Shown here: in pieces, positions 7,225 to 51,933 of the stretch
How positions within the stretch are numbered: the first letter of the stretch is position 1
How the letters are laid out: every line of letters begins with the position of its first letter
Virus record (IMG/VR): IMGVR_UViG_3300042555_002061
Coordinates: 1 to 52,528 of that record
Direction: 5' to 3' (one strand)
DNA from: a virus
Length of the DNA stretch: 52,528 bases
Notes under the pieces: model-generated
Databases searched by the model: none
The model's input: only the letters and a program-made list of their open reading frames with translations
Told to the model about the DNA's origin: nothing
Position numbers and translations under genes: made by a program

Positions 7225-7989
7225 TTAACACTCCGCAAAAACAATGACCCAACGACCGTCACCTTCGACAGCTACTAGATTCTTGTTAGAACCTACAGCT
7301 ATGGTGGTGCTGCGATTATAACCAATTAACTGTACTGCTGTACTATTCCATCCACCCCCAGAAGGAACTTGCAAGTTAAATGGACCGCTACTGGTAGTTC
7401 CAATAGCATTGATGGATCGTCCACAAACTGTCGTTCGCAGTCTCCTGGTGAGGGAAACCAAAACGTGAGACTTAGCTGGATCGAGGTTACCGATTATCTC
7501 GGCTCGACCAAACAAGTCATACGTCATAACTCCGTTGACGATATCGATTCCTCGGTAGGTTGCCAAGTTTGCACTAGGGGTTGTACCACTGATCTTGAGG
7601 AAGCTGACTCCTGAAAGTAGTACTGGGGCAGCTTGAGTGCTAGTGATAAGTCCGAGAGCGATACCCCAATGAGGAAGCCAACCGTGAGTAATCGAATTGT
7701 ATTCAGAAAGTTTATTAACGTAAGCTGTCGGGACATTTTGAGTTTCCTGGGGGAGTGTGGCGTTGTTGGTGTCGAACGTGAAAGCTGGTTTCCATATGAG
7801 TACAGGTTCATACGGTTCGATTATGCCGTCACCAGTTTCAAGTTGCCCCATGATTCTAACATCGTCGGGGGAACCTTGAATACTTGGGACAAAGTTTGCT
7901 GGAGAAGGTATACGAGTAAGCTCATTGACAAACTTACTTGTAAAGATTTCTTTGAACGGTGTTCCTGGGTGGACTGCTCGTCTAGCCAT
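7225..7989 (-). CDS. Distal tail / virion protein, unknown family
   Basis: The 254 residues are rich in Thr, Ser, Gly and Val, with predicted beta character and no transmembrane segment. It starts MARRAVHPGTPF and its stop abuts the next gene; its start overlaps the 374-residue gene by one base. Position after the tape measure and the 374-residue protein suggests a distal tail or baseplate-hub component. One copy of the dispersed TTCCTGGGG word lies inside at 7744. Confidence 0.55.
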   Translation of the reverse strand: MARRAVHPGTPFKEIFTSKFVNELTRIPSPANFVPSIQGSPDDVRIMGQLETGDGIIEPYEPVLIWKPAFTFDTNNATLPQETQNVPTAYVNKLSEYNSITHGWLPHWGIALGLITSTQAAPVLLSGVSFLKISGTTPSANLATYRGIDIVNGVMTYDLFGRAEIIGNLDPAKSHVLVSLTRRLRTTVCGRSINAIGTTSSGPFNLQVPSGGGWNSTAVQLIGYNRSTTIAVGSNKNLVAVEGDGRWVIVFAEC

Positions 7990-9113
7990 TATAGTAGGAA
8001 GTCTTTGTAGTCAGAGTATTTGTAGTGCTTGAGGATGACTCGGTGAGACGGTACTCGAATTACTCGACCTCTTGTGTTAGACACAATCTGAGGAGCATAC
8101 TCGTATGACACTAAACTCCAACCGGAATGTACTCCAGCAGGTTGTACTCCGTTTAGAGCATCTACTACTGTAGCTGGAAATTCAGGTTCGTAAATGGTGT
8201 CAAATTGGTTGGTAGTAACGATAACTTTCTTACCACCCACGTAAGTAACTTCGTCTTTGGGGCTAGCAAGAGCTTCTGTTACGTCTGAAAACTTGAAGTT
8301 TGGTTTGACTTCGAACTCAAGAGTTACAGGCACAGCTTGAAACAAATCACCTTCTCCAGAGTAGCCCATAAACATCACACTTCCGGGGGCGAACCCGAAG
8401 AAGTCTTTCTTGTTTAGGGTGGTTAGCATTCGAGACAACCTGCGAACGTATGAATATGTTAGCATAGTTGGTGGCATGTATTGGGTGATTTGGAACTTAA
8501 AAGATCGAACGTAGACTTCGGCTCCTTCGATCCCATCTTCACTGTAACCAATCAAACCATAGCTACCGTTTTGGTATGGCAGCGGTTCTGTTCCTGGGCG
8601 GTTCTTTGCTCGTTGGCATTCGACTACTCTAGCTTTCTGTATCTTTTCGGTAGTGCAGCTACCGTTGAAAGACACTTGTGTAAACTTGGTTGAATTGTTT
8701 TCACCGTCTGAAGGTCCAGTAGCTCCACCAGCGTCACCCCCTTGATTAGAACCGTTGTCGTCTGGAATGTCGTAGGTTACTTTAATTTCCCACGTAGTCC
8801 AGTTGATTTGTTTGGCGGTCAAGCTAGCACAGAACAACAATTGAAATTCAGTGTCACTGATGTAAAACATGAATGTCAATGGAACCAATCCGTAAAAGAT
8901 TGGCAACAATTGTTGCTGCATCACTTTGTCATCAAACAACATGTCCAGGTCAGTTCCTGGGAGAACGTGTGATTCAGCCCAATCGACAAACCAGTCACTA
9001 GAGACTCTAAATGTAAAGTCTTTTGTGATGGTTTGTCGATTGATTGTGAACCCACGTGAGTCTCCAAAGACTTCTTCATACACAATGTCATTCGGACCAA
9101 AGTCACTAGGCAT
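7989..9113 (-). CDS. Distal tail protein
   Basis: The 374-residue protein has mixed beta segments and a Gly/Asp/Ser-rich linker near residues 145-165. It overlaps the 98-residue gene by 8 bases and the 254-residue gene by one, so the three are translationally coupled. The order tape measure, 98-residue protein, this protein matches the slot of distal-tail (Dit-like) or tail-hub proteins in siphoviruses. I do not recognise the family by sequence. Confidence 0.55.
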   Translation of the reverse strand: MPSDFGPNDIVYEEVFGDSRGFTINRQTITKDFTFRVSSDWFVDWAESHVLPGTDLDMLFDDKVMQQQLLPIFYGLVPLTFMFYISDTEFQLLFCASLTAKQINWTTWEIKVTYDIPDDNGSNQGGDAGGATGPSDGENNSTKFTQVSFNGSCTTEKIQKARVVECQRAKNRPGTEPLPYQNGSYGLIGYSEDGIEGAEVYVRSFKFQITQYMPPTMLTYSYVRRLSRMLTTLNKKDFFGFAPGSVMFMGYSGEGDLFQAVPVTLEFEVKPNFKFSDVTEALASPKDEVTYVGGKKVIVTTNQFDTIYEPEFPATVVDALNGVQPAGVHSGWSLVSYEYAPQIVSNTRGRVIRVPSHRVILKHYKYSDYKDFLL

Positions 9114-9402
9114 GGTGCGTCTCCTCTTGTAATTGCTCAGCTTCTTCTGAAAGAATCTCTCGCAGTTCCGTACTGTCTACAAAATTGTAACGGTCTTTCA
9201 AGTAAGCTATTGCTTTAGAACAATCAACATCAACAAAACCAATCGTCTCCCCCAGAGGAAATTCCTTAACTGCCGGAACTTTTACTGGAGAGAACAATGC
9301 TCGGTAGTCGGCGTAGAACATTCTAAACGTAGGTCGTGAGTGTTTTGCAAGAATCGACAACATACGGTGTGCGATTATTACACTGGCTTCGTTTGGAATC
9401 AT
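9106..9402 (-). CDS. Small tail-module protein, unknown
   Basis: 98 residues with an acidic helical C-terminus (ELREILSEEAEQLQEE). It overlaps the tape-measure gene by 4 bases (ATGA type) and the next gene by 8. Such small proteins after the tape measure often assist tail-tip assembly; here this is inferred from position only. Confidence 0.55.
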   Translation of the reverse strand: MIPNEASVIIAHRMLSILAKHSRPTFRMFYADYRALFSPVKVPAVKEFPLGETIGFVDVDCSKAIAYLKDRYNFVDSTELREILSEEAEQLQEETHHA

Positions 9403-12400
9403 CCTATACCACCTTGAACTGAAAGTAAACGATTAGTTTCTTGTTGGAGAGCGTTGCTTTCTTTCATCAAATCTTCTTGCCGTTTGGTATCGGTTCGAAG
9501 AATTGCTCTGGTCGACATAGCCCCACCAGTTAGTGCTTGCAAGAACTTCGGAAGTTCTTGTTGCAGTTGTTGTTGAGGATTGTTTTGTGTAGAGAACAAA
9601 GATCGCAATAAAAATTGTTCTCTTTGTAGCAATGCTGCTTTTTCTCTAGCATCGGCAATCGCAGGTTTGGCAAACAAGTCATTTAGTCCCGAAGTCATAG
9701 CGTTGTATTCACCCAAATCTTCTGGAGTCTGTAGACTGTCGTACAGCTTTTTCATATCTGTACTTCCTTGCTCTTTGTCTGCTTCTGCCAACCTAGCTCT
9801 TACAGAAGCAAGTTCTGTTTGAACTTCGTTGTAGGCTTTCTGCTTTTGTGCAGCAAGTTGAGCATCAGAAGGACCCTTAGTGTCTTGTTGTAGACCAAAC
9901 ATTGTAATTTGTCGGTTCAACAAGTTTGTTTCTAACATGGTGTTTAGATTTTCAAACTGAGCTTGCATACTATACTGTTGTTGCAAAGAACGTTCGTTAG
10001 CACCAGCAGCTACACCAGCTCGACGTCGGGCCATTTCCTGGGGGGAGATAGCCATGATTTGTTCGAGTTGTTTGGCTCGTTGCTTACGTTCGAATTCAAG
10101 CATACCTCTTGCGATGCTAGCTTGCATTTCTGTTGTGGTCCTTCTACCCATACCTTCACGTTCAATTTCCTTACCAGCATTCATGCCGGTTAGAGTGTAA
10201 ATTGAACGGCCAAGTATGGTCTGAAAGTCTGCAAGGAATGTTTGTAGTGTTTCACTCAAAGAAATTAGTCCCTTGAAGAAACCTGTGACAAACATGTCGA
10301 TGCCTTTCACGATCATGATAGCTGTTTGAGCCATACCGCCACCACTACCCATACCGCTGAACAAGTCTCCAAACGAAGCCATGATCGGTGAAGCCATGAA
10401 GCTAAACGTCTTGGAAATTCCCTCAAAGATACTCATGAAGATTACCTTGAGTCCTTCGAAGATTTTTTGCAAGACGATCCACATGTATTCGACATGGACT
10501 AGGAACGTGTTCCAAGCAGCAACAAGTTGGTTCTTGATGATGTCTACTAGACCCATGAAACCAGTTTGTAGAGCTTGAACTCCCACTCCCGTTTCTCCCT
10601 GGCGGAAGGCAGAGAATGCTAGCTTGAACAGATTCATTGCTGGACCTGCGTAGCTAGCTACTTTACCAAGCTCACCGAAAGCTCCAGAAATACCAGCACC
10701 AAGTGCCTTGAAAGCATTGACTACTGCTGGAATCTTGTCACCGAACATCAACAGTACGTTGAAGATCATGCCGACGAAGTTCCAAGAAAACACAAACCGA
10801 CCAACCGATCCAGCTAGTCTGAGGAAGCCACCAGCAAGAGTCATGATTCCTTGACCAGCTCTAAGCAAGTTAGCTCCAGTCATCATTCCTTTGAGGGACT
10901 TGAATCCACCAGCAATACCACTCATTGCACCACGGGCAAGTCCACCGGCCATAGAACCAACATCACGAACACTGGTAAGTCTGGAACGTAGAGTAGCAAG
11001 TTTCATTTCACTTGCTATTCGACGACCAGCAATGGTTCGGTCTAAGGCTTGAACAGTCTTTGCTTGTTTTGCTCTGGCGGCTGTAGCTTTAGCTACGTTA
11101 GCAGCATCTAGTTGTCTTTGTGTTTTATGCAAAGCAGCAACTTCTTTTACTCTAGCAGCTTGTCTTGCTACGGGAGCATTCTCATAGTTTCGTACCTGAG
11201 AAACTGTGCTAATCATTTCTTTTTGAAGTCGAACTCGCTGTGCTTCAAACAAGTTGATTCTTTGAGAAATCATTAGTTCTTCTTGACGATACTTTAGCCA
11301 AGTAGCAGACGTCTTAGGACCATCTTTTGTAATCATTGCTTTTGGCAACTCAGACAAGATTTGACGAACCTTAAATAACCGATCATACATTTGATCGACT
11401 ATTTTTAGGTTGTCAGGTGACTGTAGAGTTTTTAGTGCCTGAGCTATAGGTCTTACAATCGCCCCCATGTCTACTGCTTTTGATCGTTGCAATAGCTGAA
11501 CGTACTTCTGACGTTCTTTAACCAAGTCTGGCAGGGCTGCTGCTTTCCTGGGGAGGGACTTGATAGGTGCAGATACTTTAGCCATTTGTGCTTGGAATGC
11601 TCGTTCGTTTTTGAGGGCAATCATTTGCTCCCCACGAATGGCTGAATTCATCAGCTTGTTGTTGCGAATTGCTTCCTTGCGTTGGGCTATTGCAGCAGCA
11701 CCACTACGAATACCACGGACACTTGACATGGCAGCTTGTCCTGCTCCACGACCAGCACCCATGATTCCTCGACCGATTGCTCCAAACAAACCACCACGAC
11801 CCATCTTCTGGAGTTTCATGGCTTCTTTGATTAACTTAGCCATTGTCTTGGAACCAGCAACTTTGGCTGCATTACCACCAGACATTGCTGCGTCAATGGA
11901 TCGTTGTAGTCTAGCTACTTTAGCTGCTTGCATTGCTCTGGCGGACTGACCACCAGTAGGTAACATAGCAGCAGTATTCTTTAACGACCCACCCAGAAAA
12001 CGTAAGCCTCTACCTGCGAGAGTAACGAGACTCATAGTTTTGGCTAGTCTGGACAGAGCAAAGGATAGGGTGTATGCTCCGACCATTGTGGTAGCGAAGA
12101 TTACTGGAAGCATCAAGAATGTTGCTGCTAGTAGTTTGTTTTTCTTTAACCATTCTTCGAACAGGGTGACGATGTAAGCACCCATGTTAAAGAGTGCAAG
12201 AAACTCTCCTTCGACCAGTTTTCCGATTGTGATCTTGAGAGTCTCGAAAGCACTCGTCAATCGACGAACAGCACCACCAGGACCTTCTTCCATCTTGGCA
12301 GCAGCTAGTCGGGATTCAGCTCCAGCTTTGCGGATTTGCTCGATAAATGCTTCCACTCGCTCAATTTCCTGGACGGATGAAACTGCACGAGCACCACGAA

Positions 12401-14916: not shown

Positions 14917-15360
14917 TTAGAAGTTGAACTGGCGAGCTAGTCCCACCTTGAACTCTTTGGCAATCGCACCACGGGCAGTCAACTGCTTTAGTGTGTGCCC
15001 CATGTAAGATCGTTCAGGGTAGGAATAGTAACTAAACTGACTGAAAAATGTTCCACCAAACTCATGAATGTGTGGAACAGGTTGATTGAAAAAGTCACTA
15101 CCTGGAAACTTAACAGGACCAATGATAGCTCCGTTTGAGTAGGTAACAAACTCGATGATTCTTAAACCACCCCTAGTCTTAGCAAACGGCGGGTTTCCTG
15201 GGGAGGAAGTTTGTTTGCTGATCTTGAGTGATCGAATAGCTGCACCACGAATGAGTGCAGCTGTTCTTGTTAGACCATTCTTTTTACCACGATCAACACG
15301 GGTGTTGAACTTTTGTAGGTAGAACAGTGACCGAGCAACATACTTGAACATGACTAGCAA
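14917..15360 (-). CDS. Tail completion protein (HK97 gp10-like)
   Basis: 147 residues with a basic N-terminal half and a C-terminal aromatic-rich segment (HEFGGTFFSQFSYYSYPERS). Basic proteins of this size lie between head-tail connectors and the tail tube in HK97-like phages and join tail to head. Starts at ATG 15360, overlapping the terminator gene by 7 bases. Assignment rests on position and size. Confidence 0.55.
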   Translation of the reverse strand: MLVMFKYVARSLFYLQKFNTRVDRGKKNGLTRTAALIRGAAIRSLKISKQTSSPGNPPFAKTRGGLRIIEFVTYSNGAIIGPVKFPGSDFFNQPVPHIHEFGGTFFSQFSYYSYPERSYMGHTLKQLTARGAIAKEFKVGLARQFNF

Positions 15361-15821: not shown

Positions 15822-16177
15822 GGAGAACCTTTCTCGTTCATCACTAATACTGTGCGGCGATGTTCACCGTCGTTGTAGAAGTAAGAACCTTTTGCATCAA
15901 TGACAAGTTCGTAAGTCACGTTGGTGGCTGGATTGAGGATTTGTAGTCCTCGTACCAAAGAGATTTCGTACTTAGCCAGGTCTTGTGTGGGAACCAGAAT
16001 ATGGAACCGAGGAGCTTGAGTCTTGACTGAGTTCGAGTCCAACAAGTGTTTGCACTCCGAAATAGTCCCTTTTATCTCAAACTGGGGCTGGCCTGGATAA
16101 CCAATTAGCAGAGCAACATCAGTAAATTGTTCTGCTTGTTTATACAAGAAATCCAGCCCCCAGGAAAGAATATTCAT
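15815..16177 (-). CDS. Head-tail connector / neck protein
   Basis: 120 residues with mixed alpha/beta character. Its place between the decoration protein and the tail terminator fits a head-tail joining protein. One dispersed word is present in the opposite orientation (CCCCAGGAAAG at 16157), one of only three such exceptions noticed outside the left element. No family recognised with certainty. Confidence 0.5.
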   Translation of the reverse strand: MNILSWGLDFLYKQAEQFTDVALLIGYPGQPQFEIKGTISECKHLLDSNSVKTQAPRFHILVPTQDLAKYEISLVRGLQILNPATNVTYELVIDAKGSYFYNDGEHRRTVLVMNEKGSPC

Positions 16178-16921: not shown

Positions 16922-19063
16922 TTAGCCGTTGGCTCGAAGAACAGCTTCCCGTTCTCGTTCGTTGATTTCGATGTCCCAGTAACCCCGAGTACCGGTCCCC
17001 AGCATGTTTGCTGGAAGATCGACAGCTTCGATGGTTGGGCGTCGTTGACCTCGCAAGTAGGTGATGCTGTAGGGGCTAAATCGTTGGGATTTCGGCCACA
17101 GCAACCAAGTGTTCTCACTGACGAACGTACCACTTCCGAGCAAGCTGCTGTTGCTCATTTGTGGAAAAGGTACAGTGTCAAGCTTACCAAACCAGTAGTT
17201 CAAGTCTCCAGTCTTGGAAGGGCTTGGTGCTCCAGTTTCCTGGACGATTCGGGATTGTCTGAGCAAGTCGAATGCAGCTTCTTCTCCGGTGATTGAAGTG
17301 ATAAGAATCCAACGATCGTTGATGAGGTTGACAAAGTTCTTGCCACGCTTTTCGTTGTACTGCCGTACAGCGTTGTATGCTGTGGAAAGGTTTGCTCGGT
17401 TAAGTGCGAAACTGGTTCGGCTATTGTCCGCATCAACCCAGAAGGACTTAGCTGCTGCTGCTTTGACGAGCATCAGTTTGCCCAGCTTCATGTCTGGAAC
17501 AATCAACGCACCTTCAACCATCGCATCAAGCATGTCAGCGATCACACCCATGTCGTCGTTGATGATGTCCTCACGATTGAACACAACCAACTGAGCCGAA
17601 GTCGAGAGCTTGGATCGGTATTCGGTTTCTTCTCCGAATTCGGTTTCTTCGATCTTCCCGTCGTTTTTCATTTCGTCCCAAATCTTACCGCCACCTGGAC
17701 GGATTCTCTGGGTGACCCGGAAGTCCTTGTTGGATTCTTCTTTGAGGTACTGAACTGCGAACGGAGTGTTGATTGCCCATCGTTCTTCCAACATCATGCT
17801 TGTAACCTTCTTGAGAAGGTTAGGCATGTCGATCATTGAGAATCCACTGTTGTTGATTCCGAGGAACGAGTGCTGAGTGGTGGTCTTGATGCTGCTGCAC
17901 AAAATGTCGACGTCACTAAATCCGGTGAATCGTCGTTGACGTTCGGTGCTGTTGGCCAAGTTGACCAGGGTTTCAACAAAACTCCAACGGGAAGTACCGA
18001 GGCAGGTGTCAAGAACTTTCTTGTCAACGTGCTTGGCGATCGTTTCTGGGGAGATATTGCAGGACAGAGCAAACTGTGCTACAATTTCGTCTCCTGCGGA
18101 TGCTCGTTGTTGTGGAGTCAAGTTTGGTACTCCTGGCAAGCTGTTCTCAAAGATTTTCAGCTTGATGCTGTTTTCGATGGTAGTGAGGTCCGTTCCAGCC
18201 GAGTATTGAGATTCAATACTGTCAGCATGGTCAGGATACGAGTTTAACAATCGAGAGAGCCGAACAAGTTCTGTTCGGGTAACTCCCGAATTCTGTACTG
18301 GAGCAACAGGCACAACCGGAGCTGGAGCCACAGGAGCAGGTGGAGCTGTATTCTGTAGTGGAGCTACAGGTGGAGTAGCAGGGGGAGCGGCAGGAACAAC
18401 AGGTGGTTCTGCTGGTGGAACGGGTGGTGCTGGTGGAGTGGAGCTGTTCAAAAGCATTTGTGCTTCCTTGTTTAAGAGACCAAAGTTTGTATCGGAATCA
18501 CGACCAGACATCGTGACTGTCATTTCTTTCAAGATGGAACGTTCAGCAACGTACATCGGTCCCGTCACTTCACGATTGTTGATACTACGTTTGATTCCTT
18601 GTTTAAGGAACGTAATATCTTCTTTGTTGGTAATTCGAAGCCCCATGCTGGCTTCAAAAGGGAACCCGTTTTTAAGGGCTTCTGTCACCGTTTCTCTGGC
18701 AGGTGAAGGATAGGACGTAACTCCTTTTCCACTTAGGTTACTGTTGGTCTTGACTAAAGACGTTGAGTGACCGATTGGTTCCCAGTGTTCAAACAACATT
18801 GGGATGGAGTTTTTATGCTCGATTCCTGCAATGTTGTAAATCATTGGGTATTCGTAGCCGTAGTCTCGTAGACTGACGGGACCACCAGAGTATCCGGTAA
18901 AAGACAATTCATGCAAACCATTTTCGGCTTGTGTTGAAGTCGCTTCGGTAGCTAGGTTGAAGATAGCTTCACCTTCTGCTGGCCGGTAGTTGGGTGCTGG
19001 AGGACTGTTGTTAAACACGTCCCTAGCTTTTTTGATTGTGTTGAGTCTTTCACTCAGTTTCAT
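16922..19063 (-). CDS. Fused prohead protease - major capsid protein
   Basis: 713 residues. Residues 1-210 resemble phage prohead proteases, with a His in FEHWEPIGHS (H93) and a Ser in FPFEASMG (S139) as probable catalytic residues. Residues about 212-258 are a Pro/Ala/Val-rich linker. The remaining 450 residues read as a major capsid protein of the Mu-like or HK97 fold type. Fusion of protease and capsid in one chain is known in some phages and implies self-cleavage in the linker region during maturation. The gene overlaps the portal by 14 bases and is followed by a long stem-loop, in keeping with high expression. Confidence 0.85.
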   Translation of the reverse strand: MKLSERLNTIKKARDVFNNSPPAPNYRPAEGEAIFNLATEATSTQAENGLHELSFTGYSGGPVSLRDYGYEYPMIYNIAGIEHKNSIPMLFEHWEPIGHSTSLVKTNSNLSGKGVTSYPSPARETVTEALKNGFPFEASMGLRITNKEDITFLKQGIKRSINNREVTGPMYVAERSILKEMTVTMSGRDSDTNFGLLNKEAQMLLNSSTPPAPPVPPAEPPVVPAAPPATPPVAPLQNTAPPAPVAPAPVVPVAPVQNSGVTRTELVRLSRLLNSYPDHADSIESQYSAGTDLTTIENSIKLKIFENSLPGVPNLTPQQRASAGDEIVAQFALSCNISPETIAKHVDKKVLDTCLGTSRWSFVETLVNLANSTERQRRFTGFSDVDILCSSIKTTTQHSFLGINNSGFSMIDMPNLLKKVTSMMLEERWAINTPFAVQYLKEESNKDFRVTQRIRPGGGKIWDEMKNDGKIEETEFGEETEYRSKLSTSAQLVVFNREDIINDDMGVIADMLDAMVEGALIVPDMKLGKLMLVKAAAAKSFWVDADNSRTSFALNRANLSTAYNAVRQYNEKRGKNFVNLINDRWILITSITGEEAAFDLLRQSRIVQETGAPSPSKTGDLNYWFGKLDTVPFPQMSNSSLLGSGTFVSENTWLLWPKSQRFSPYSITYLRGQRRPTIEAVDLPANMLGTGTRGYWDIEINEREREAVLRANG

Positions 19064-20459
19064 CAGAATCCTCTTGTTCTGCTACGGGTTCAGTATCTTC
19101 TGGTTCGTTCAGGACTGCTGCTGCTGATGGAGTTCGTCCAGCTAAAAGCACTTCGCACATATCTTCATACGAAACACCTAGCAAGTCAGCTTCTCGTTGA
19201 ATTTCTCTTCGAGGGTTTTGTCCTCGTTCAGTGTAAATTCGTACAAGAGTTTTAGCTCCAGATTGAAGATCAGTAGCAATACTGTTACTAATTTTTTGGG
19301 GGTCGGGATGGGAGAATACTTGAGAATAACTTAACGAGTAGTTAAGTCCTTCTTCTGCAATAAATCGGACGGTTCGTGGAGAAAAGTACTTTGAAGTTAA
19401 AACTCCAGCTTGTGCCCAAAGGCTTACCATTTTGTGGATTGCTGGAGCAAAATCTTCACGGTCGATTGCAATGGTACTTTTCCAAGGACCAAAGTCTACT
19501 TGGCTGCTAGCCATGTTGTACTTACGACTGTTACCTGTTGCAAGGTTAACAGGCATGTTAATACAACGGGCAGCAGCACCAACCATTGCATCAAGAGCTT
19601 CCGCATCTTCTGATGTTGTACCAGAGTAGGACAACCCTTCCAGGGTAGTTCCTGGGGGGAGTGTTGGGATCATACCTGGTTCGTACTTGAACTCTCCTTC
19701 TGGCATTCCCATTGACTCTGCGGCTTCTTTACCCCACACTGTAGGGTCAAGCTTGAGAGCCATTGGAATTGCTGAACGAAATTCAGCACTACGAATCACA
19801 GAGTCTAAGTATCTCTTGACTGATGGAAAAATGCAGAGTGCTGGAGCACACTCTACAATTCCACAAATTTGATCTTCGTACTTGTTCTTCCACCAAAGAA
19901 TAATGTCTTTGGTGTTGTAGAACTCACCGGTGTCCAGGTGGATTTGAGTTGGTTCCCAGTTTTTGTTGTACTGGATTCCATCCCACCATCGTGACTCAAC
20001 CCCTTCTCCTGGTGGATTGAGTAGTTTCTCGGCTGTGACTACTCGAAGTCCTACTCGAACTTCGTGTACAGTGTTTTCCATCGGGTATGGAATACCAATA
20101 CCGATTCCGGTGCGGGCTGCTGCTCGACGTAATAGTCTGATTTGACTACCCAACCCGGTTTGTTGACAAAACTTTGTCCACTGATCTTCGATGTTTGTGT
20201 TGACATCTGGATCAGAAGAACTTCCGATAATCACTGGAGCAGGACCAACACAATCGTTAGCGAGTGTGTTGAGGATGCCGTGGTAGTGAGAACCTTCTTC
20301 GTCTTGTTCAATCGAAATGGTCATTAACTTACGTCGAACCCACGGGTGTTTAATAGCTCGTAAGAACCGTTCACGTGGAATTTGATTGTAAGGAACTGTG
20401 TCTCGATTGCGAAACCAAGTTTTTGGAGAAGCTAGAAATTGTATCCAGCTACGAGTCAT
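19050..20459 (-). CDS. Portal protein (lambda gpB family)
   Basis: 469 residues. It has the aromatic N-terminus, a central ILWWKNKYEDQICGI segment and, near residue 300, the VGAAARCINMPVNLATGNSR block typical of lambda-type portals. The acidic tail (EPEDTEPVAEQEDSDETE) is disordered. The ring it forms is the DNA channel and docking site for the terminase (29656-31830). Its start overlaps the 76-residue gene by 11 bases. Confidence 0.9.
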   Translation of the reverse strand: MTRSWIQFLASPKTWFRNRDTVPYNQIPRERFLRAIKHPWVRRKLMTISIEQDEEGSHYHGILNTLANDCVGPAPVIIGSSSDPDVNTNIEDQWTKFCQQTGLGSQIRLLRRAAARTGIGIGIPYPMENTVHEVRVGLRVVTAEKLLNPPGEGVESRWWDGIQYNKNWEPTQIHLDTGEFYNTKDIILWWKNKYEDQICGIVECAPALCIFPSVKRYLDSVIRSAEFRSAIPMALKLDPTVWGKEAAESMGMPEGEFKYEPGMIPTLPPGTTLEGLSYSGTTSEDAEALDAMVGAAARCINMPVNLATGNSRKYNMASSQVDFGPWKSTIAIDREDFAPAIHKMVSLWAQAGVLTSKYFSPRTVRFIAEEGLNYSLSYSQVFSHPDPQKISNSIATDLQSGAKTLVRIYTERGQNPRREIQREADLLGVSYEDMCEVLLAGRTPSAAAVLNEPEDTEPVAEQEDSDETE

Positions 20460-23621: not shown

Positions 23622-23622
23622 A

Positions 23623-37107: not shown

Positions 37108-37144
37108 GAGGGTTTCCTTGATAAAGGGGTGAAGTAAATAAAAA

Positions 37145-37214: not shown

Positions 37215-37230
37215 TAACAACACTTTACCA

Positions 37231-39478: not shown

Positions 39479-40255
39479 CTAGGCTCCTTTCTTGTATGCC
39501 TCAGGAAAATGTTTGAAGAGGTTGGTCCAGGCTTCCTGGGGTGATTGCCCCATAGGAATTACCGGTGGCATACTCCACCGATTTTTGGCTTGGTGTGCTG
39601 TCGAAAGAGTCGTGTAGATAAGACGATTGTTCGATTCAACAGCTTTCCCTTCCATAGCTAAACCGGATACTTTTTCGGTCACACGATTGATAGCTACGTC
39701 GAGGTTGAGAAAAAAGATGAATCCAGCCCAGGCTGTGAGAGTGCTTCTCATACCAAGACCTTTGTCGCCATCTTCCATATTGATCACGTGACACAAAACG
39801 TCTGCACCCATTGTATTGGGTAAAGGAATTGTGCCTACGTGTCCAATCAAAATAACGTTAACTCCTTGATTGACCTTGGTTGAACAAGCATCAAGGAATT
39901 GTTGCAACACTTGTGGTGATTCTTTACGAACACCAGACGAGTATGCGTGAAAATCTTTGCTGTTGTTCTGGTAGTACATACGTAGAACGTAATCAAAGAT
40001 TTTGTTTTGCAAACCTTTGGTGCTGTCGATAACAACAGTACCTTTCACGACTTTGCCTACAGCCGAAACAAGTTGCTCGAAATTGTCGATGACGTAATTC
40101 ACCGAATTTTCTGGAACTTGGTTGACCATTTCAAGGTCTTGATAGCCGGTTTCACCCACTGACATGCAATGGACTGGACCGGGAAACTGGAGTGCAAGGC
40201 TAGTTTTACCCATACCTTCACGACCATAAATAACACCTGATAAACCACGGGACAA
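39479..40255 (-). CDS. Sak4-like RecA-family recombinase ATPase
   Basis: 258 residues starting at TTG 40255 with AGGAGAATTA 5-12 bases upstream. Walker A is GREGMGKT (11-18), Walker B is GTVVIDS near residue 77, and ILIGHVG matches the following conserved strand. The protein lacks RecA's N- and C-terminal extensions, as in Sak4 single-strand annealing ATPases. With the downstream single-strand-binding protein and the RecB-like nuclease it forms a recombination module. Confidence 0.82.
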   Translation of the reverse strand: MSRGLSGVIYGREGMGKTSLALQFPGPVHCMSVGETGYQDLEMVNQVPENSVNYVIDNFEQLVSAVGKVVKGTVVIDSTKGLQNKIFDYVLRMYYQNNSKDFHAYSSGVRKESPQVLQQFLDACSTKVNQGVNVILIGHVGTIPLPNTMGADVLCHVINMEDGDKGLGMRSTLTAWAGFIFFLNLDVAINRVTEKVSGLAMEGKAVESNNRLIYTTLSTAHQAKNRWSMPPVIPMGQSPQEAWTNLFKHFPEAYKKGA

Positions 40256-40380: not shown

Positions 40381-40469
40381 GATTTTGGAGGCCTATATGT
40401 AAAACACAGAAAAGCCAGATAGTAGAAGCCTACCATAAGACCAAAAAGCAAATGTTCTATATCAAACAT
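40377..40469 (-). CDS. 30-residue membrane peptide
   Basis: ATG 40469 overlaps the last 8 bases of the MazG-like gene: the bases AACAATGTTTGA end one gene and start the other. The product (MFDIEHLLFGLMVGFYYLAF and a short tail) is a membrane helix. The junction at 48810-48817 has the same layout (AACAATGCTTGA, product MLDFLDWLIVYIELPA...), which supports both as genuine genes. Confidence 0.55.
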   Translation of the reverse strand: MFDIEHLLFGLMVGFYYLAFLCFTYRPPKS

Positions 40470-41328
40470 TGTTGTCTGCTTTTCGGGTGGCATCTTCTGG
40501 GGTGAAGGTGCCGGTTGGGTATCGTTTACGAAGTTTGGCTTCGTTTGCGTTGAGAATGTCTTGGAGAGTCAAGTCAAGGTCAACAGTAGCAAACACAGTA
40601 ATGAATGCCCAGAATCCACGAATGTAAATCGGAAGTAGTGACCAGTCTGCGGTACGGTAGTACAACACACGTTTGACGTAATCCAGGAAACCTTCAACGT
40701 ACTGTGGAAAGTCGATGGTTTCGCAATTCTTGTACGTCGGGAGTAACTCGATGTACTCGTTACACAGCATCACAACAGAAATTTCCATCACAGCCAGTTG
40801 CATACGTTTGTCGAGAGATTCGGCAGACAAGTAGTCTCCGTGTTTTTCATTCAAAGCACGGTCGAAAATCAACGTGTACGGATGATTGGCGGGGCCTTGT
40901 TCGGGCAGTTGTTCGATGAGTTGCTTTTCATCAGGACCAAATAATTCTGGTGGTGGAATGATTTCGGGCGTAGACGTTACTGGATGGTCTACTCTCATGT
41001 AGGCTACGTCTGTCGGAAACACAAAGCCTGGTCGGTTCTGTGATGATTCGACGTACTTGTCCATGGTGTTTTCCAACATGGCGACGTAGTAGCAAAGGTC
41101 TCCCAATTCTTTGATGTATGCAGTTCGAGCTGGTGAACCTTGTGAGGTATCTCCACCGAACAGAAAACTTAGTCGTGCTTCACACACTTCGAATGCTTCT
41201 CCGGCGATGCCGAGAGTACAGTGGTTGAAGTCGTCACGAACGATATGTTCTGGGTCGGTGAATTGACTGGCTGCGAACGTGGTACGAACGAAGTTGTGGT
41301 ATGGGTTGGTACGAGGACAAATTTTCAT
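40462..41328 (-). CDS. MazG-like NTP pyrophosphatase
   Basis: 288 residues. LGIAGEAFEV (about 39-48) and KELGDLCYYV (about 69-78) give the acidic metal-binding pattern of MazG-type enzymes, and the closing NANEAKLRKRYPTGTFTPED is a common MazG C-terminal signature. Between them is an insertion of about 100 residues not found in compact MazG proteins, which may be a second degenerate helical copy. It would hydrolyse (d)NTPs or alarmones. Overlaps the nuclease gene by one base. Confidence 0.78.
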   Translation of the reverse strand: MKICPRTNPYHNFVRTTFAASQFTDPEHIVRDDFNHCTLGIAGEAFEVCEARLSFLFGGDTSQGSPARTAYIKELGDLCYYVAMLENTMDKYVESSQNRPGFVFPTDVAYMRVDHPVTSTPEIIPPPELFGPDEKQLIEQLPEQGPANHPYTLIFDRALNEKHGDYLSAESLDKRMQLAVMEISVVMLCNEYIELLPTYKNCETIDFPQYVEGFLDYVKRVLYYRTADWSLLPIYIRGFWAFITVFATVDLDLTLQDILNANEAKLRKRYPTGTFTPEDATRKADNNV

Positions 41329-42386
41329 TAGTTTTCTCCGTGGAGTTCTTTGAACAGGTGAGGGACTGGAACAAGGGATTCGAGTGGTAAAGCTCCAGTA
41401 AGATACTGATAATAGTCTTTCTTAAACTTGTCAGTACGAGCTGGGTCAAACAATCGAAGTGGACGACGATGAAACAAGTGGTTGTAACAGTCAGGATTGA
41501 ATGGATCAAAACTGTCTGAGAGGGTATACTCGTACATGTAACAAAGACCGTCGATGATTGGATCGAGAGTAACCTTGCGAAACTCAGTGACGAGTTCTTC
41601 TGGGTGAGAGAAACAGTGTTGATCTAACCACATAAACTTGTTCTTGGACACTGGATAATCTTTGTAAGGAGTACAAGTGTTGTAGATTCGGTTGATGTAG
41701 TAAGGAATACGTTCTCCGATGTTACGAGCTGGACAACCAAACTGGACTTCTGGAATACGAATGATGTCGTAAATCACTTGGTCTGTAGTCTTGCCTAGCA
41801 CTTGCATTGCATGCAGGTACACGTTTAACTGCAAGTCAGTGTGAATTTCCTGGCGGTGTTGTAGTCTGTCGTGGTATCCTTTACATTTGTGTTCTATGAG
41901 GACTGGTAAATCAGGGTCAAACGAATAACCTGCTGGAATGAATGGGATTCGGGGAGTACCAATACCGTCGATCTTACCCATGAGGGAGACTCGATGATTT
42001 TTGGTACGATACTCGAACTTAAACTGTTTTTCGGTCTCGATTTCGTAAGAAAGTTTGTAGCTGTCGTTGTACAACTTCATCATTTCCAATACAGAAGGAA
42101 GTGTATTTGCTTCAACGTGAGCATAACCTTCTTCAAGAGTAACGAGGCGGTTTTTTAGATCGTCGAGAACTTCCTGGGAGAGGTTGTTGTAGAGCAGTGG
42201 GTTAGGTAGGGTCAGTTCCAGTAGTAAGTGAAACTCGTTACCCCAAATTAGGTTTTGGTTGACTGGTCCTGATTCTTCCAGACCGCAACCGTAGTACAAG
42301 ACAAAACTGAACGGGTCTTGTAGATACTTGCCGAGTAGCGACTGGGTTATTCCCCCGTCGACTGGGCCTTTCCATTTCCATTGCAT
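41328..42386 (-). CDS. RecB/Cas4-like PD-(D/E)XK exonuclease
   Basis: 352 residues. The core, PVLIEHKCKGYHDRL followed by DLQLNVYLHAM, matches the E-x-K and Q-x-x-x-Y motifs of RecB/Cas4 nucleases; GKIDGIG upstream provides the metal-binding Asp. No iron-sulfur cysteine set is evident. Probably resects DNA ends for the Sak4-type recombinase. ATG 42386 has AGGAATC upstream, inside a dispersed-word copy. Confidence 0.78.
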   Translation of the reverse strand: MQWKWKGPVDGGITQSLLGKYLQDPFSFVLYYGCGLEESGPVNQNLIWGNEFHLLLELTLPNPLLYNNLSQEVLDDLKNRLVTLEEGYAHVEANTLPSVLEMMKLYNDSYKLSYEIETEKQFKFEYRTKNHRVSLMGKIDGIGTPRIPFIPAGYSFDPDLPVLIEHKCKGYHDRLQHRQEIHTDLQLNVYLHAMQVLGKTTDQVIYDIIRIPEVQFGCPARNIGERIPYYINRIYNTCTPYKDYPVSKNKFMWLDQHCFSHPEELVTEFRKVTLDPIIDGLCYMYEYTLSDSFDPFNPDCYNHLFHRRPLRLFDPARTDKFKKDYYQYLTGALPLESLVPVPHLFKELHGEN

Positions 42387-43114
42387 GAGTCTGATTCCTG
42401 GGGTGAGTGGTGTTGAATTTGGTCTTTGCGGAGGGTGTAGTCGTGATGGGTGTCTTTTTCTTCGATTCGAACAACTACGAAATTTGGTGGAAGTTGCGAC
42501 GTTGAAACTTTAAGTACAGTACCGACACAACCGAACTGAGAATGCTCTGCATCGATGATTTTGACTTTTTGCCAGGGGTCAAACGTGGGTATAGGTTGTG
42601 GTGGTTCGTTCAACCGTTCTTGAAAGAATTCATGGTCTACGGCGGGTTGAGTCTTGCGTCGTATGCCGGAAATAGGTTGTAGTGGGTGTAAGGGGCTTCC
42701 GTCGTACTCATTTGCAAATTCTTGAGGGGATGAGTTGGTCAAGATGTTGCGTAAATGTTCTTCGGCTTCCTTCCTACGTCGAACTTTTTTGTTGGCTTCG
42801 GATAGAATGGCGTTCATTCGGGCCAAAGTTTCTATGTCGGATTTCTTGACAGGAGTGGGTGGTTGTAAGTGGTCGACCAGGGTGTGTGGGTTTCCTGGGC
42901 AGTTGAATACATATTGAATGTAGTCGAGGAATTGTTCGAGGGTGCAGTCAAGTAAGAATGTTGAGAATGTACCACCACCCATATGGTAGGTGACTTCACA
43001 AAGTTCTTGATTGACTCCGTTGGCTATCACAATACGAATACCGCAGAGTGTCACTGATTCAAGGTTGATGATTCGAGTGACATTGGATTGGTCGGTAATT
43101 TTTACGAAAAACAT
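42347..43114 (-). CDS. Two-domain unknown protein with SH3/KOW-like C-terminus
   Basis: 255 residues. The first 80 form a beta-rich domain, then comes a helical basic stretch (NKKVRRRKEAEEHL). The last 75 carry an SH3/KOW-like segment (WQKVKIIDAEHSQFGCVGTV) similar in pattern to those at 28529-29659 and 44829-45377. Overlaps the exonuclease by 40 bases and the glycosylase by 13. Function unknown. Confidence 0.6.
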   Translation of the reverse strand: MFFVKITDQSNVTRIINLESVTLCGIRIVIANGVNQELCEVTYHMGGGTFSTFLLDCTLEQFLDYIQYVFNCPGNPHTLVDHLQPPTPVKKSDIETLARMNAILSEANKKVRRRKEAEEHLRNILTNSSPQEFANEYDGSPLHPLQPISGIRRKTQPAVDHEFFQERLNEPPQPIPTFDPWQKVKIIDAEHSQFGCVGTVLKVSTSQLPPNFVVVRIEEKDTHHDYTLRKDQIQHHSPQESDSCNGNGKAQSTGE

Positions 43115-44641: not shown

Positions 44642-44664
44642 GAGGGAATTTCCTGGGGTGAGAG

Positions 44665-44850: not shown

Positions 44851-45377
44851 AGTTTTGTTCCTGAGAGTGTGACTGTCGGGATGTTTGATTTGTAGTTTTT
44901 GGGGTCGACAAAACAGCCGGTGAGTGGGTCGAAATTTTTCATGTACTCGTCGTCAGAACAATCGTTGACAAACAACTCAAGTAAACCGACGTCTAATAGT
45001 ACGGGTGCAAAAACTGTAATATCGCATCTCTCTTGTATAGCTGCAAAACGATAGGGTTTGTAGGTGATTATTTTTCCGGAGGCTTCCCACTCAACGATAA
45101 GAGTTCTGTGGCCGTGACTTGGTGGAATTTTCATTCCGTGGTGAGGACCACCCACGACTGTGAAGTTAAGTTTCAACCAACGATCTTTTTGTCGTTGGAC
45201 TGTTGTTTCCTCTAAATCGATTTCGTCGGAGGACACGTACTCGCAAGCTCCGCCTTCGGGTTGAATGAATATTCCGTAATTTCCGGGATTGACGGCTCGG
45301 ACAATAAAAAGTTTGTGCTTGAGTCGTCGTAAACGGACTTTGTCGCCTATTTGGAATGGTCTTGGTTCAGGGGGCAT
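44829..45377 (-). CDS. SH3/KOW-like early protein
   Basis: 182 residues. The N-terminus (FQIGDKVRLRRLKHKLFIVR) has an SH3/KOW-like beta pattern, and the centre (GGPHHGMKIPPSHGHRTLIV) reads as a second beta domain. Overlaps the ligase by 11 bases. Comparable SH3-like segments occur in three other proteins here. Function unknown. Confidence 0.55.
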   Translation of the reverse strand: MPPEPRPFQIGDKVRLRRLKHKLFIVRAVNPGNYGIFIQPEGGACEYVSSDEIDLEETTVQRQKDRWLKLNFTVVGGPHHGMKIPPSHGHRTLIVEWEASGKIITYKPYRFAAIQERCDITVFAPVLLDVGLLELFVNDCSDDEYMKNFDPLTGCFVDPKNYKSNIPTVTLSGTKLCPNSDS

Positions 45378-46509
45378 CGGTTGTTTCTCCTATGGGTTTG
45401 TCACAGTTTTCTTTGCGGAAGTAGTGGATGCCTACGGGACAACGTGGGACTCCGTATTCGGAGTATCCTTCAAATTCTACTTTGAGGTACTGACCGATGT
45501 AAGTCTCTTTGTAAGTGAGGATTTGTTGTCGTTTGGCATGAGTTCCCTTGAAAGAACATTTGAATTCTTTGCCAGAACTTGTTTCACAAACAAACACACC
45601 TTGCTTGTTTGTTCCTGGGATGACGTCGACGATGAGGAATTCGTTGTCTACGAATGCTTTCATCTTGAGTAACGACGTTGATCGTTTGTTGACTTCGTAG
45701 GGAGCATTGCTGTTACGAATCATCATACCTTCGTAACCGGCGGCTCGATAAGTGTCAAACTGCTCTCGCAGTTCTTCTTCTCCTGGGGGAGTGTCGTGTA
45801 AGACGGTGTGTACCATCTTAAATGGGCACTTGTGGGAGAAGTAGGGTAGGTTTTTGAAAGTAGACTTTGGGTCGGTTCTCCAACGAATGTAGACTTCTTC
45901 GAGTTCGGAAACGATTCGTTCTGCTTCGAGTACACGGGCTTCGAATGGAGCTTCGATGTCGATGATATCGAATACGTGGTACTCGATTTCTTTGCATACG
46001 GTGTAGTCTGGACGACTACGCATGACGTAAGACTCGATTGTGTTCAGGGGAGTGTTGGGAATGATTAGTTCCCCGTCGAGCTTGATTCCTTCCGGTAGTT
46101 TGGACAAGTACAACTCGATGTGAGGGCAGGACAGGAAGTACAAGTTTCTTCGAGACAGCAGTCCTTCACGAGACATGATACATCGAATGCCGTCGAGCTT
46201 GGGTTGCAAGGCAACTTTGTCAAACTTGACATTACCCTTGTATTCTTGAGCCAACATGGGTAGGTCTGGTGAAGCTGTCGGAATCGTTTCGGTAAAACCT
46301 TTACGATCTTTTTGGTGTCGAATACGACTGTGATATTCGTCGACCGCTTTTTCTGGAGGGACTTCGATAACTTGTTCACCGTGTTGTGATACTTCGGTGG
46401 AAGTCTTGCTGCATCGACCCCAGGTAACAGTAAGTACGTTGTTGTCAACGGTGGCTACCCACCAAGTAACGTCGTTGAAGTTGTTCAGTTTGTAGAGAGT
46501 AGTTTGCAT
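45367..46509 (-). CDS. ATP-dependent DNA ligase with WGR-like N-terminus
   Basis: 380 residues. Residues 1-50 resemble a WGR domain (LTVTWGRCSKT). The ligase motifs follow: Lys104 in QPKLDGIRC (AMP-binding), KLDGELII, AGYEGMMIRN and LLKMKAF, then an OB-fold end (FKCSFKGTHAKRQQIL). It seals nicks in replication and repair, probably with the glycosylase. A WGR-ligase arrangement is known in phages and bacteria. Confidence 0.85.
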   Translation of the reverse strand: MQTTLYKLNNFNDVTWWVATVDNNVLTVTWGRCSKTSTEVSQHGEQVIEVPPEKAVDEYHSRIRHQKDRKGFTETIPTASPDLPMLAQEYKGNVKFDKVALQPKLDGIRCIMSREGLLSRRNLYFLSCPHIELYLSKLPEGIKLDGELIIPNTPLNTIESYVMRSRPDYTVCKEIEYHVFDIIDIEAPFEARVLEAERIVSELEEVYIRWRTDPKSTFKNLPYFSHKCPFKMVHTVLHDTPPGEEELREQFDTYRAAGYEGMMIRNSNAPYEVNKRSTSLLKMKAFVDNEFLIVDVIPGTNKQGVFVCETSSGKEFKCSFKGTHAKRQQILTYKETYIGQYLKVEFEGYSEYGVPRCPVGIHYFRKENCDKPIGETTDAP

Positions 46510-46980: not shown

Positions 46981-48474
46981 TTACTCTGCGTAAATGTAGT
47001 AAAGGTCTCGTTTGGTACGGGTGTGTGCAACAAAATCAATGTTGATTTCTTGCTTAATTTCAATGTCAGTCTTTGCTCTTTCTGACGGAACTGGTGGATT
47101 TAGGATGCCAATAATGTCGGCTTCCAGTCCTTTTGCTTTGTGAATGGTACACAAAGTGATATGTTTGATGCCTTTTGGGGGTTTGAGTAGGGACTGTACC
47201 AGTGGTTCGAACTCTTCGATACTGTTACAGTCTTTGAGGATATGGCGGATACAGTCGAAACGATCGGCTGTAGCTTGTTTTGCCATTGGACTACCAGCAC
47301 GAAGGCAAAGTTCTTCATAACTAGCAAGTTTGAGTAAAAGATCGTCGATATTCTTGGCTCTACGGTTTTGTACTGTAGAAATCAAGGATTTTGCCAGTGA
47401 ATCACCCAAAGTTCGACAAGGAATTTGGTTTTTGACCAGCTGTAGTGCCAGTTTCATCAACGGAGCATTGTATCGACAGATAATCATTGGGCTGTTTTCG
47501 ACCATAGATCGACTCCATTCAACGATGTTTTCTGCTCGAACTTTACCCACAATTCCTGGGGTGCGGTCGGGTAAGGTGCGAATTTGAGCTGACGGACAGA
47601 TTGTGTTGGCTGTTTGAGCCATGTTTGGTGGTAATCTGAACGAAAGTCGTAAAGGAAGCTGTGTAGAACAGTGTTCTGCGATCTTGCTGATTGATTCTGG
47701 GTCTGCACCAGTCCAAGCATTGATAGCTTGGTTAGTATCACCCACAAAAACCAGGTTACGACACAGTTTGAAGGACAAAGCCAGCCTAGCTGGACTTAAA
47801 TCCTGACATTCGTCTACAAAACCGATTTCGTACAAGGGTTTTGGCAACATAAACAGGGCTAACCACACTTGGAGCATATGACTTATGCCCAATTGACGGT
47901 GATTTGCGGACTTCATAGCCCGAATAATCTCGGATGCTTGCTGACAAATGTCTGGATGAATCTTGTACGGAGCAAGATCACTGTATTTGGCTTGCATCAA
48001 ATACATGTTTTCTTCGGTCACTTCGAGCAATTCTTCTTGCAGTTTTTCTACAAAACGGAAGGAAGTGATCCAAGAAAACCTGTTTTTGTCACTAGAAAGG
48101 GTGCGTCCAGTGACAGTTTCGATCAAACGGTCGGTGTAATCCTTTTTGTTGAGAGGAACGTACCCGATTGCTCGTTGTAGTACCTTGTACCCCCAACCGT
48201 GGTGAGTCTTAACTTCTGACTCGGAATGGATACGATTCTTGAGATCGTCAACAGTGGTGTTGTTGTAGGCCAAATAAATGGCAGGCAACGGCTCACCGTT
48301 CTCTTTCCTGGGGAGAGACTCCCTGCACCATTGGTAAACTGCGGCTTGTTCCTCAGTGTGACGGAACTTTTGTAGCCATAGTTCTGGTTTGGTGGTACGA
48401 TAGTAGATGTAGGCATCGACGATTGTGGAAGTTTTACCACAACCTGGTCCGGCATTGATTAATAAGTGTGGCAT
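46981..48474 (-). CDS. SF1 DNA helicase (UvrD/PcrA-like)
   Basis: 497 residues. Walker A is AGPGCGKTST (9-15 core); motif II is FVDECQDLS (DECQ variant of DExQ); motif III is VGDTNQAINAW; motif V is CTIHKAKGLEADII; motif VI is VAHTRTKRDLYYI. It is shorter than UvrD (about 720) and lacks most of the 1B/2B insertions, as in compact phage helicases. A role in replication or recombination is likely. Confidence 0.88.
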   Translation of the reverse strand: MPHLLINAGPGCGKTSTIVDAYIYYRTTKPELWLQKFRHTEEQAAVYQWCRESLPRKENGEPLPAIYLAYNNTTVDDLKNRIHSESEVKTHHGWGYKVLQRAIGYVPLNKKDYTDRLIETVTGRTLSSDKNRFSWITSFRFVEKLQEELLEVTEENMYLMQAKYSDLAPYKIHPDICQQASEIIRAMKSANHRQLGISHMLQVWLALFMLPKPLYEIGFVDECQDLSPARLALSFKLCRNLVFVGDTNQAINAWTGADPESISKIAEHCSTQLPLRLSFRLPPNMAQTANTICPSAQIRTLPDRTPGIVGKVRAENIVEWSRSMVENSPMIICRYNAPLMKLALQLVKNQIPCRTLGDSLAKSLISTVQNRRAKNIDDLLLKLASYEELCLRAGSPMAKQATADRFDCIRHILKDCNSIEEFEPLVQSLLKPPKGIKHITLCTIHKAKGLEADIIGILNPPVPSERAKTDIEIKQEINIDFVAHTRTKRDLYYIYAE

Positions 48475-49433: not shown

Positions 49434-49469
49434 GGTGTGAGAGTGGGTTAGAGGGACGGAGTATGTTGG

Positions 49470-49850: not shown

Positions 49851-49875
49851 GGTCAGGTTTGGTTAGAGGGAAAAG

Positions 49876-50463
49876 TTAGTAAGGTTCGAAATACCTAGGT
49901 GCATCACCCATATCGTTCTGAGTACAAGGACGGCTTTCGTTTGGATTACGGGTCGGAGGGATTGGAGCAGGGTGTTCAATTCGTAGATAACCTGCCGGTG
50001 TAAGTGGAATTGGAGTTTGGAGTAGAAGTAGGCAAGTTACCGGGACTACTACCGATCCTGGGTTTTTGGAGTGAAATCGTTCACAAACCAATCGCCATTC
50101 ACCAGTTTGGGTACGATAAACTTGAGTAGCTTCGTACACAGTGGTTGGTGGAAACCGCTGGAGTTTCCTGGGGACGTTGATACCGTTGAGTACGACTAGC
50201 TTTCCTGGTAGTTCGGTGAGTAAGTCGTAAGCTGACAAGTACGTAGTACGTTGAAGGGTTTGTGGTGAATCAGCAAGGACGTTGCAGACTTCAAGTTGAG
50301 TTGGACGAGGGCAAGAGACGCTGTTGCCAGTTTCGTTATACTTCAAGTATTCGGGCATCTTTTCGAGAACAATACCCAGAGATGAAACTTTGAACAAAGA
50401 TTCGATTTTTGTGTGTAAGGCTGTACCTGTGAAGCTGATACGGGTGAGAGTCATGTAGCTCAT
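49876..50463 (-). CDS. Unknown early protein
   Basis: 195 residues, mixed alpha/beta, with a Pro-rich C-terminus. Overlaps the next upstream gene by 4 bases (ATGA). No family recognised. Confidence 0.5.
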   Translation of the reverse strand: MSYMTLTRISFTGTALHTKIESLFKVSSLGIVLEKMPEYLKYNETGNSVSCPRPTQLEVCNVLADSPQTLQRTTYLSAYDLLTELPGKLVVLNGINVPRKLQRFPPTTVYEATQVYRTQTGEWRLVCERFHSKNPGSVVVPVTCLLLLQTPIPLTPAGYLRIEHPAPIPPTRNPNESRPCTQNDMGDAPRYFEPY

Positions 50464-50990: not shown

Positions 50991-51011
50991 GAGTGAGAGT
51001 TTCCTGGGGTG

Positions 51012-51257: not shown

Positions 51258-51568
51258 GAGAGTCGAGCCTTAAGTTTGTGTTCGAGTTTGGTGAGGAGTT
51301 CTGAGTACTTGTAAAGATACTCGGTGTTTTCCCAGAGTTCTTTGACAAGTTTGAGTTTAGCCATTGCTACGGAAGGATTACCGAAGTTGATTTCTTTTAG
51401 AATGTTATCCTTCTGACGAATCAGGATAAAATCTAGTTGAGTCTTGTTCTGGATGGTCAACTGGTTGTATTCGAATGAGTTCTGAAAGATCGCATCCTGA
51501 GACTCCCCCTCGGAGTTGGCCGGTGAATTTCCTGGGGAGGGAGACGGTAGAGGGTTTAGTTGTTCCAT
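51254..51568 (-). CDS. Unknown helical early protein
   Basis: I start at ATG 51568 (MEQLNPLPS), giving 104 residues; the longer open frame lacks a plausible start. AAGGAACCC lies 13 bases upstream and an alternative ATG in another frame sits nearer to it. The protein has a Pro/Ser head, then a helical domain ending KLEHKLKARLS. No family recognised. Confidence 0.5.
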   Translation of the reverse strand: MEQLNPLPSPSPGNSPANSEGESQDAIFQNSFEYNQLTIQNKTQLDFILIRQKDNILKEINFGNPSVAMAKLKLVKELWENTEYLYKYSELLTKLEHKLKARLS

Positions 51569-51659
51569 ATTGCATGGGTTCCTTTCGAGAAGAGTGGTGG
51601 TGATTGTCAACGAGATACTTACAACGGATTTTACGGATTCTGTGGACCATGACGGATTC

Positions 51660-51911
51660 CTAAGAACGAGGTTCACAATAGCCGGTGTTCCAACCATAAA
51701 AAGTTTCGTGTATCCAAGTTTTACAGTTAGTCGGGTGCATGGCTGTAAGAGTGTCTTGAATACGTTTAGTTACTGTTTCGTTGCAGTTAAGAACTACGAC
51801 CGTGTTATTTTCGGTCCTATACTGAATCTGCAACTCTGTAAACAATTGCTTCAATTGACTCAAAACATTTTTGGGGTCTTTGAGATATTGAATAACAAGC
51901 TGTTTGGGCAC
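51660..51911 (-). CDS. Unknown early protein
   Basis: 83 residues from GTG 51911, with AGGAGACTC 6-13 bases upstream formed by the dispersed word CTCCCCAGGAGAC. Predicted alpha/beta; two cysteines. No family recognised. Confidence 0.52.
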   Translation of the reverse strand: MPKQLVIQYLKDPKNVLSQLKQLFTELQIQYRTENNTVVVLNCNETVTKRIQDTLTAMHPTNCKTWIHETFYGWNTGYCEPRS

Positions 51912-51933
51912 GGTACGAGTCTCCTGGGGAGAG

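Follow-up and report, generated by a model that had tools for sequence, protein, structure and literature searches.

What reads a short word that a bacterial virus repeats in one direction along its genome, and to what end? We searched the window (the whole stretch of DNA analysed, 52,528 nt) for CCCCAGGAA on both strands, yielding a total of 23 exact matches, of which the minus (coding) strand carries 20 and the plus strand 3, the first starting at position 7744 and the last lying at 51529-51537 (the last CCCAGGAG is at 51921-51928; Table 1). Dinucleotide shuffling of the window (100 shuffles) gave a mean of 0.31 matches and a maximum of 3, against the 23 observed, and an order-2 Markov model expects 0.28 copies on the minus strand, where 20 are found. 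The looser form CCCAGGAA occurs 37 times on the minus strand and 7 times on the plus strand, including 5 and 4 copies respectively inside a compositional island at positions 1-4300. Motif copies in this island were set aside in counts, resulting in minus-to-plus ratios of 20:3 for CCCCAGGAA, 32:3 for CCCAGGAA and 57:9 for CCCAG[AG]A[AG]. Overall, the word is enriched about 70-fold (observed over expected) with a polarity of about 10:1 over the whole genome. The minority orientation is likewise enriched (22 copies against 3.5 expected) and has no clear role, and so is CCCAGAAA, the AGAA form of the word, which has no Shine-Dalgarno core. A sequence-only reading of this DNA had counted about 40 copies, which is too many for exact CCCCAGGAA and right only for the looser forms; the near-uniform orientation and the genome-wide spread that it described were recovered, and neither of the results that it named as refuting, a frequency at the Markov expectation or parity of the two strands, was obtained.

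Table 1. Positions of the word and of genes discussed in the text, with coordinates in the window.
Feature	Position	Strand	Remark
CCCCAGGAA exact site 1	7744-7752	-	
CCCCAGGAA exact site 2	10035-10043	-	
CCCCAGGAA exact site 3	11545-11553	-	
CCCCAGGAA exact site 4	15195-15203	-	
CCCCAGGAA minority orientation	16158-16166	+	
CCCCAGGAA exact site 5	19649-19657	-	
CCCCAGGAA exact site 6	23591-23599	-	
CCCCAGGAA exact site 7	24597-24605	-	
CCCCAGGAA exact site 8	25199-25207	-	
CCCCAGGAA exact site 9	28850-28858	-	
CCCCAGGAA minority orientation	32502-32510	+	within primase gene
CCCCAGGAA minority orientation	33314-33322	+	primase gene, conserved VPGAG codons; same place in G002, G006, G007
CCCCAGGAA exact site 10	33446-33454	-	
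CCCCAGGAA exact site 11	34853-34861	-	
CCCCAGGAA exact site 12	36642-36650	-	
CCCCAGGAA exact site 13	39533-39541	-	
CCCCAGGAA exact site 14	42395-42403	-	directly 5' of an ATG
CCCCAGGAA exact site 15	44650-44658	-	directly 5' of an ATG
CCCCAGGAA exact site 16	47553-47561	-	
CCCCAGGAA exact site 17	48305-48313	-	
CCCCAGGAA exact site 18	50165-50173	-	
CCCCAGGAA exact site 19	51001-51009	-	
CCCCAGGAA exact site 20	51529-51537	-	
CCCAG[AG]A[AG], span of broad set	5068-52004	-	57 minus, 9 plus, without the 1-4300 island
Primase	31830-33860	-	zinc-binding domain, TOPRIM RNA polymerase domain, C-terminal P-loop ATPase; proposed motif reader
Family A DNA polymerase with 3'-5' exonuclease	34086-35978	-	would extend primers
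Sak4-like recombinase	39479-40255	-	candidate Chi partner
PD-(D/E)XK nuclease	41328-42386	-	candidate Chi partner
ATP-dependent DNA ligase	45367-46509	-	would join Okazaki fragments
UvrD/Rep-like helicase	46981-48474	-	candidate Chi partner

An origin in chance, codon usage or a protein motif has next to no probability, even though copies in frame 2 encode a Pro-Gly dipeptide. Across seven genomes, we counted 94 genic copies of CCCCAGGAA against 3.4 after synonymous shuffling (28-fold), which already refutes such an artefact and agrees with the earlier statement that codon or protein constraints cannot explain the word, and 152 genic copies of CCCAGGAA against 11. All three coding frames are used, as had been stated, though unevenly (14, 58 and 81 copies in frames 0, 1 and 2, in addition to 20 intergenic copies), and the density of the broad form is 1.54/kb between genes against 1.25/kb in genes. 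Where two relatives encode an identical peptide at a site, both retain the motif in 97%, 67% and 68% of cases (frames 0, 1 and 2). At control positions the DNA is identical in 34% of cases for frame 0 as a whole, 43% for Gln-Glu in frame 1 and 16% for Pro-Gly in frame 2. When the identical-peptide condition is lifted, 30-40% of motif sites are common to relatives, against 9.5% for any octamer; together with the retention at synonymous positions, this indicates that sites are individually selected, yet mostly turn over.

The word is also a property of a lineage. All ten relatives taken from IMG/VR (terminases 63-100% identical) carry the same polar word, the coding strand holding 8-24 copies and the opposite strand 0-3, and their highest-ranked enriched octamers and nonamers are mostly fragments of it. 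An eleventh relative, G318 (primase 63% identical, terminase 50%, GC content 40%), keeps the word in a form shifted towards AGAA (CCCAGRA, 37:4, spacing CV 0.69), so that the comparison with related phages proposed earlier returned the same one-way excess in each of these genomes. The word is absent from G319-G321, whose primases are 26% identical. We then scanned 2.9 million IMG/VR contigs with two composite patterns, each built on pairs of copies; these scans, which have limited power, found the dispersed word only in this family, a lake-water family of lytic-looking bacterial viruses. The other matches were discarded as tandem repeats (L092), collagen-like repeats (L091) or contigs with few copies. 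That the scans returned no other phage group argues for a reader that is probably encoded by the phage. We conclude that this phage clade carries a genuine one-way signal along its genome, maintained by selection.

Several features of the window stand apart from the word. The 1-4300 island is made of overlapping words (AGCTC, GGGAGC, CAAGAG, AGGAAG, CTTGC) lying partly in the minus-strand ORFs 1142-2515 and 2677-3348, and the protein of the former shares 88% identity with its counterpart in G007, a distant relative otherwise, and only 56% with that of G001, near-identical elsewhere, which suggests recent exchange. The three genes at 22471-24087, the first of which matches a virion structural protein family, have no homologue in the ten relatives while the surrounding gene order is shared, and were probably inserted or replaced recently. 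A subtilisin-like S8 protease (26458-27390), closest to proteases of Bacillus and Moorella phages, is the protein best conserved with G318 (73%). The head maturation protease and capsid are seemingly fused in one ORF of 713 aa (16922-19063), and a minus-strand tRNA-Arg(TCT) at 37143-37215 is replaced by tRNA-Lys or tRNA-Gly in G001 and G009. The protein encoded at 28529-29659 has a weak KOW motif and, at its C terminus, a dATP/dGTP diphosphohydrolase N-domain; together with a MazG-like gene (40462-41328), this hints at possible editing of the nucleotide pool.

To describe the sites, we read them on the coding strand, where about 10 nt rich in C and poor in G precede a strict CCCAG, which is followed by R-A-R-A and, at +11 to +19, by a block that is GC-rich and leans towards G. 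The variants CCCAAR, CCCGAR and CCCTGR do not exceed expectation, and the core is strictly CCCAG-R-A-R; the template strand reads TYTYCTG-GGGNG-purines, with a C-poor, G-rich 3' flank. Flank composition is alike whichever frame a copy lies in, and also for copies between genes. Within genes, upstream C reaches 0.425 against 0.352 in the synonymous null and downstream G is above the null too, with amino-acid context accounting for part of the genic flank bias. The sites are spaced more evenly than random, both for CCCAG[AG]A[AG] (CV 0.745 against 0.975; 0 of 500 simulations) and for weight-matrix sites (0.71 against 0.945), with a mean gap of 0.6-1.3 kb and a sum of the largest gaps below that of all 2000 simulations; even spacing was not seen with the narrower pattern C.CCCAG[AG]A[AG]. 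An unconstrained EM motif search ended up modelling base composition, and a run seeded with the known core resulted in a register-smeared pattern of a C run, a purine run and a G run.

Transcript-level roles were assessed from the positions of the sites. A translational signal had been proposed on the ground that the word embeds AGGA, and this did not hold up: a gene starts within 40 nt downstream of only 9 of the 184 copies of CCCAGGAA, a placement that does not fit ribosome-binding sites, and CCCAGAAA is enriched without the Shine-Dalgarno core. A promoter set of a phage RNA polymerase was rejected since copies are not placed upstream of genes, and a gene-boundary role does not fit the positions either. 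All genes are co-directional, which leaves room for a transcript-level signal and counts against a role in priming. Genes on the opposite strand would, if genuine, separate an RNA-level from a DNA-level signal; the candidates of this kind in G009 and G007 match nothing in the family, and the one in G007 lies in repeat-like sequence, while that in G009 is an ORF of 337 codons (L037:10395-11405). An RNA-level signal, such as a protein-binding, processing or stability element that would be polar through the co-directional genes, is improbable in our view. Its polarity would match the coding strand everywhere, as observed, and CCCAGGAA does contain AGGA, with a few copies at ribosome-binding positions; however, the copies show no link to gene starts, are equally dense between genes and have no conserved hairpin with site-specific pairing, and both the AGAA form and the reverse orientation are enriched too. 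A downstream GGGG or GGGTG could pair with CACCCC in some copies, but hairpins were ruled out because a site pairs with its own flank no more stably than with those of other sites.

It would also surprise us if the word served another DNA-level reader, whether a nucleoid or packaging protein, a topoisomerase or a methyltransferase whose targets are laid out against type III restriction. One-way site layouts can defeat type III enzymes, as in the case of T7 and EcoP15I. The window and its relatives strongly avoid many 6-bp palindromes (CTCGAG 7 against 85 expected, GGTACC 5 against 69, CCATGG 4 against 57, GGATCC 4 against 49) and GCGC as well, which suggests that the host is probably restriction-rich. 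Avoidance of sites would nevertheless be a simpler answer to restriction than a 70-fold enrichment, no candidate protein was found among the genes scanned, and such a reader gives no reason to expect even spacing.

There remain two live readings among the candidates first listed, a replication-polarity signal and a Chi-type signal, and we keep both. To the former, in the shape of lagging-strand priming sites of the phage's own primase, we give an even chance. The phage encodes a primase with a zinc-binding and a TOPRIM domain, in which the zinc ribbon (C23/C26/C43/C46) and the TOPRIM residues E158, D204 and D206 are invariant in 12 aligned sequences, and a profile search with this protein retrieved solved DnaG primases. 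The full-length structure model is poor (pLDDT 45), the good model being that of the N-terminal 270 residues (pLDDT 88.7), which aligned with T7 gp4 (Z 16.4, rmsd 2.6, 186 residues) and the Aquifex primase (Z 15.7) ahead of topoisomerase TOPRIM domains (about 10). The word tracks this primase, being present at 63% identity and absent at 26%, which we count in favour of priming. CTG is a start triplet of DnaG-type primases, and DnaG primers made on a CTG template start with AG. After the C run, the coding-strand motif is a purine-only stretch beginning with AG, and the CTG on the template and the biased flanks are present in all frames and outside genes; given how DnaG primers behave, the CTG and the purine stretch also count for priming. 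The C-poor, G-rich template flank, the GC-rich block, the polarity, the even spacing, the undiminished density between genes and the restriction of the dispersed word to this family in the two scans likewise speak for it.

In the mechanism that we propose, a single fork, or a rolling circle, would cross the whole genome in one direction, with the plus strand of the window as lagging-strand template. In every sixth of all 11 genomes, the coding strand has a GC skew below or close to zero and a mostly positive AT skew, which makes the G- and T-rich plus strand of the window leading-strand-like. This skew is our one guide to the direction of replication, and is consistent with a motif lying on the lagging-strand template. 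There each site would read 5'-TYTYCTG-GGGNG-(purine, C-poor)-3', the lagging template carrying 5'-TYTYCTGGGGNG-purines-3', with TTTCCTGGGGTGGAG as the site in the form in which a T7-gp4-like primase would meet it. The word would thus be the core of distributed lagging-strand priming sites: the catalytic domain may start the primer at the CTG triplet, giving 5'-AGRARA..., identical to the coding strand, while the zinc-binding domain may read the G-rich 3' flank. The GC-rich block at +11 to +19 is where a primer of 10-12 nt would end. Selection would maintain a site about every 0.6-1.3 kb, which would space the starts of Okazaki fragments regularly.

Some observations count against priming. The short primase words of T7 are hardly enriched or polar in the T7 genome. 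We know of no precedent for a strong enrichment of priming sites, nor of anything in TOPRIM primases that demands a recognition word this long. The G-rich flank, where T7 has an A/T-rich one, the enriched minority orientation and the share of the genic flank bias due to amino-acid context weigh on the same side. It is nevertheless quite possible, and we propose tentatively, that this phage clade wrote an Okazaki-fragment map into its genome as regular, replaceable, collectively maintained priming stations, each made of a word of about 12 nt and its flanks, a map that could be read off the sequence itself.

The main rival to priming, which we hold to be rather unlikely yet worth serious consideration, is a Chi-type signal in which the G-rich strand word TTYCTGGGG would stop degradation and load Sak4 or RecA. 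The reader would be a host RecBCD, AddAB or AdnAB enzyme, or else the UvrD-like helicase and PD-(D/E)XK nuclease of the phage. Like Chi, the word shows both an excess and a polarity within its own genome, and single sites turn over. Nearly all relatives that are complete enough retain the Sak4, PD-(D/E)XK and UvrD genes. The genes for a RecB-like nuclease and Sak4 to which the sequence-only reading had pointed are real, though the conserved phage primase is a better candidate reader, and we recognised no reader of the size of RecC or AddB in the phage. To our knowledge, no Chi word has a purine tail or a GC-rich block. As for Chi, the G-rich strand is on the presumed leading strand (PMC8022716), and phages with recombinases but without a RecBCD inhibitor over-represent Chi (O/E 2.50), as do lambdoids lacking RecBCD inhibitors or recombinases (2.5-3.1 fold; PMC3784561), figures that are far below the O/E of about 70 found here.

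Phages of one host should moreover share its Chi, and the two scans brought up no other phage group with the dispersed word. We looked for Chi-level enrichment in sampled genomes of 289 Verrucomicrobiota and 119 Planctomycetota and found none, which weighs against Chi, although the host may belong to neither phylum; an Anabaena plasmid and three cyanophages gave none either. The nearest cultured phages are too distant for host assignment. Most of the distant homologues of the terminase come from PVC bacteria and Omnitrophota, and HIP1, the cyanobacterial word, occurs once or not at all.

Whether primase starts are chosen or arbitrary, and what sets the length of Okazaki fragments, are old questions, and if the word marks priming sites, both would become directly testable with one protein and one template. 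If it is of the Chi type, it would extend Chi words beyond the few bacteria in which they are known (five species; PMC8022716) and could help to name the host of an uncultured family. Under either reading, polar replication or recombination signals can be detected in metagenomic phages from sequence only.

Among known systems, the same k-mer statistic ranks the T7 promoters as the top one-way word in T7, but these lie mostly between genes, whereas the sites described here are random relative to genes. DNA uptake sequences of Pasteurellaceae and Neisseriaceae have a core of about 9-10 bp, dispersed and strongly enriched, with structured flanks in Pasteurellaceae; unlike them, the word is polar, limited to a lytic-looking phage family and found in no known host genome. 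It resembles Chi (GCTGGTGG in E. coli, and its analogues) in being polar, over-represented and dispersed, with high turnover, a common CTGG core and a G-rich presumed leading strand. It differs from Chi in being longer and partly degenerate, with a flank composition and a far stronger excess, and in that no host genome sharing it was found among the 408 genomes of two phyla. The T7 primase gp4 picks its sites by a pentanucleotide, 5'-(G/T)2GTC-3', and a 10-nt 3' flank, in which C at positions 9-10 abolishes binding (PMC12839067) and T/G-rich sequence raises affinity (as cited in PMC12839067). About 26 such sites are selected over the 40 kb of the T7 genome, mostly on one strand (PMC12839067). 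Here the triplet would be CTG, the flank is G-rich where that of T7 is A/T-rich, and the word is about 70-fold enriched and evenly spaced where the short words of T7 are hardly enriched. With a core triplet, a long C-depleted 3' flank, a mostly one-stranded layout and a matching primase fold in common, the parallel with the T7 priming sites appears to be close in architecture, not in sequence.
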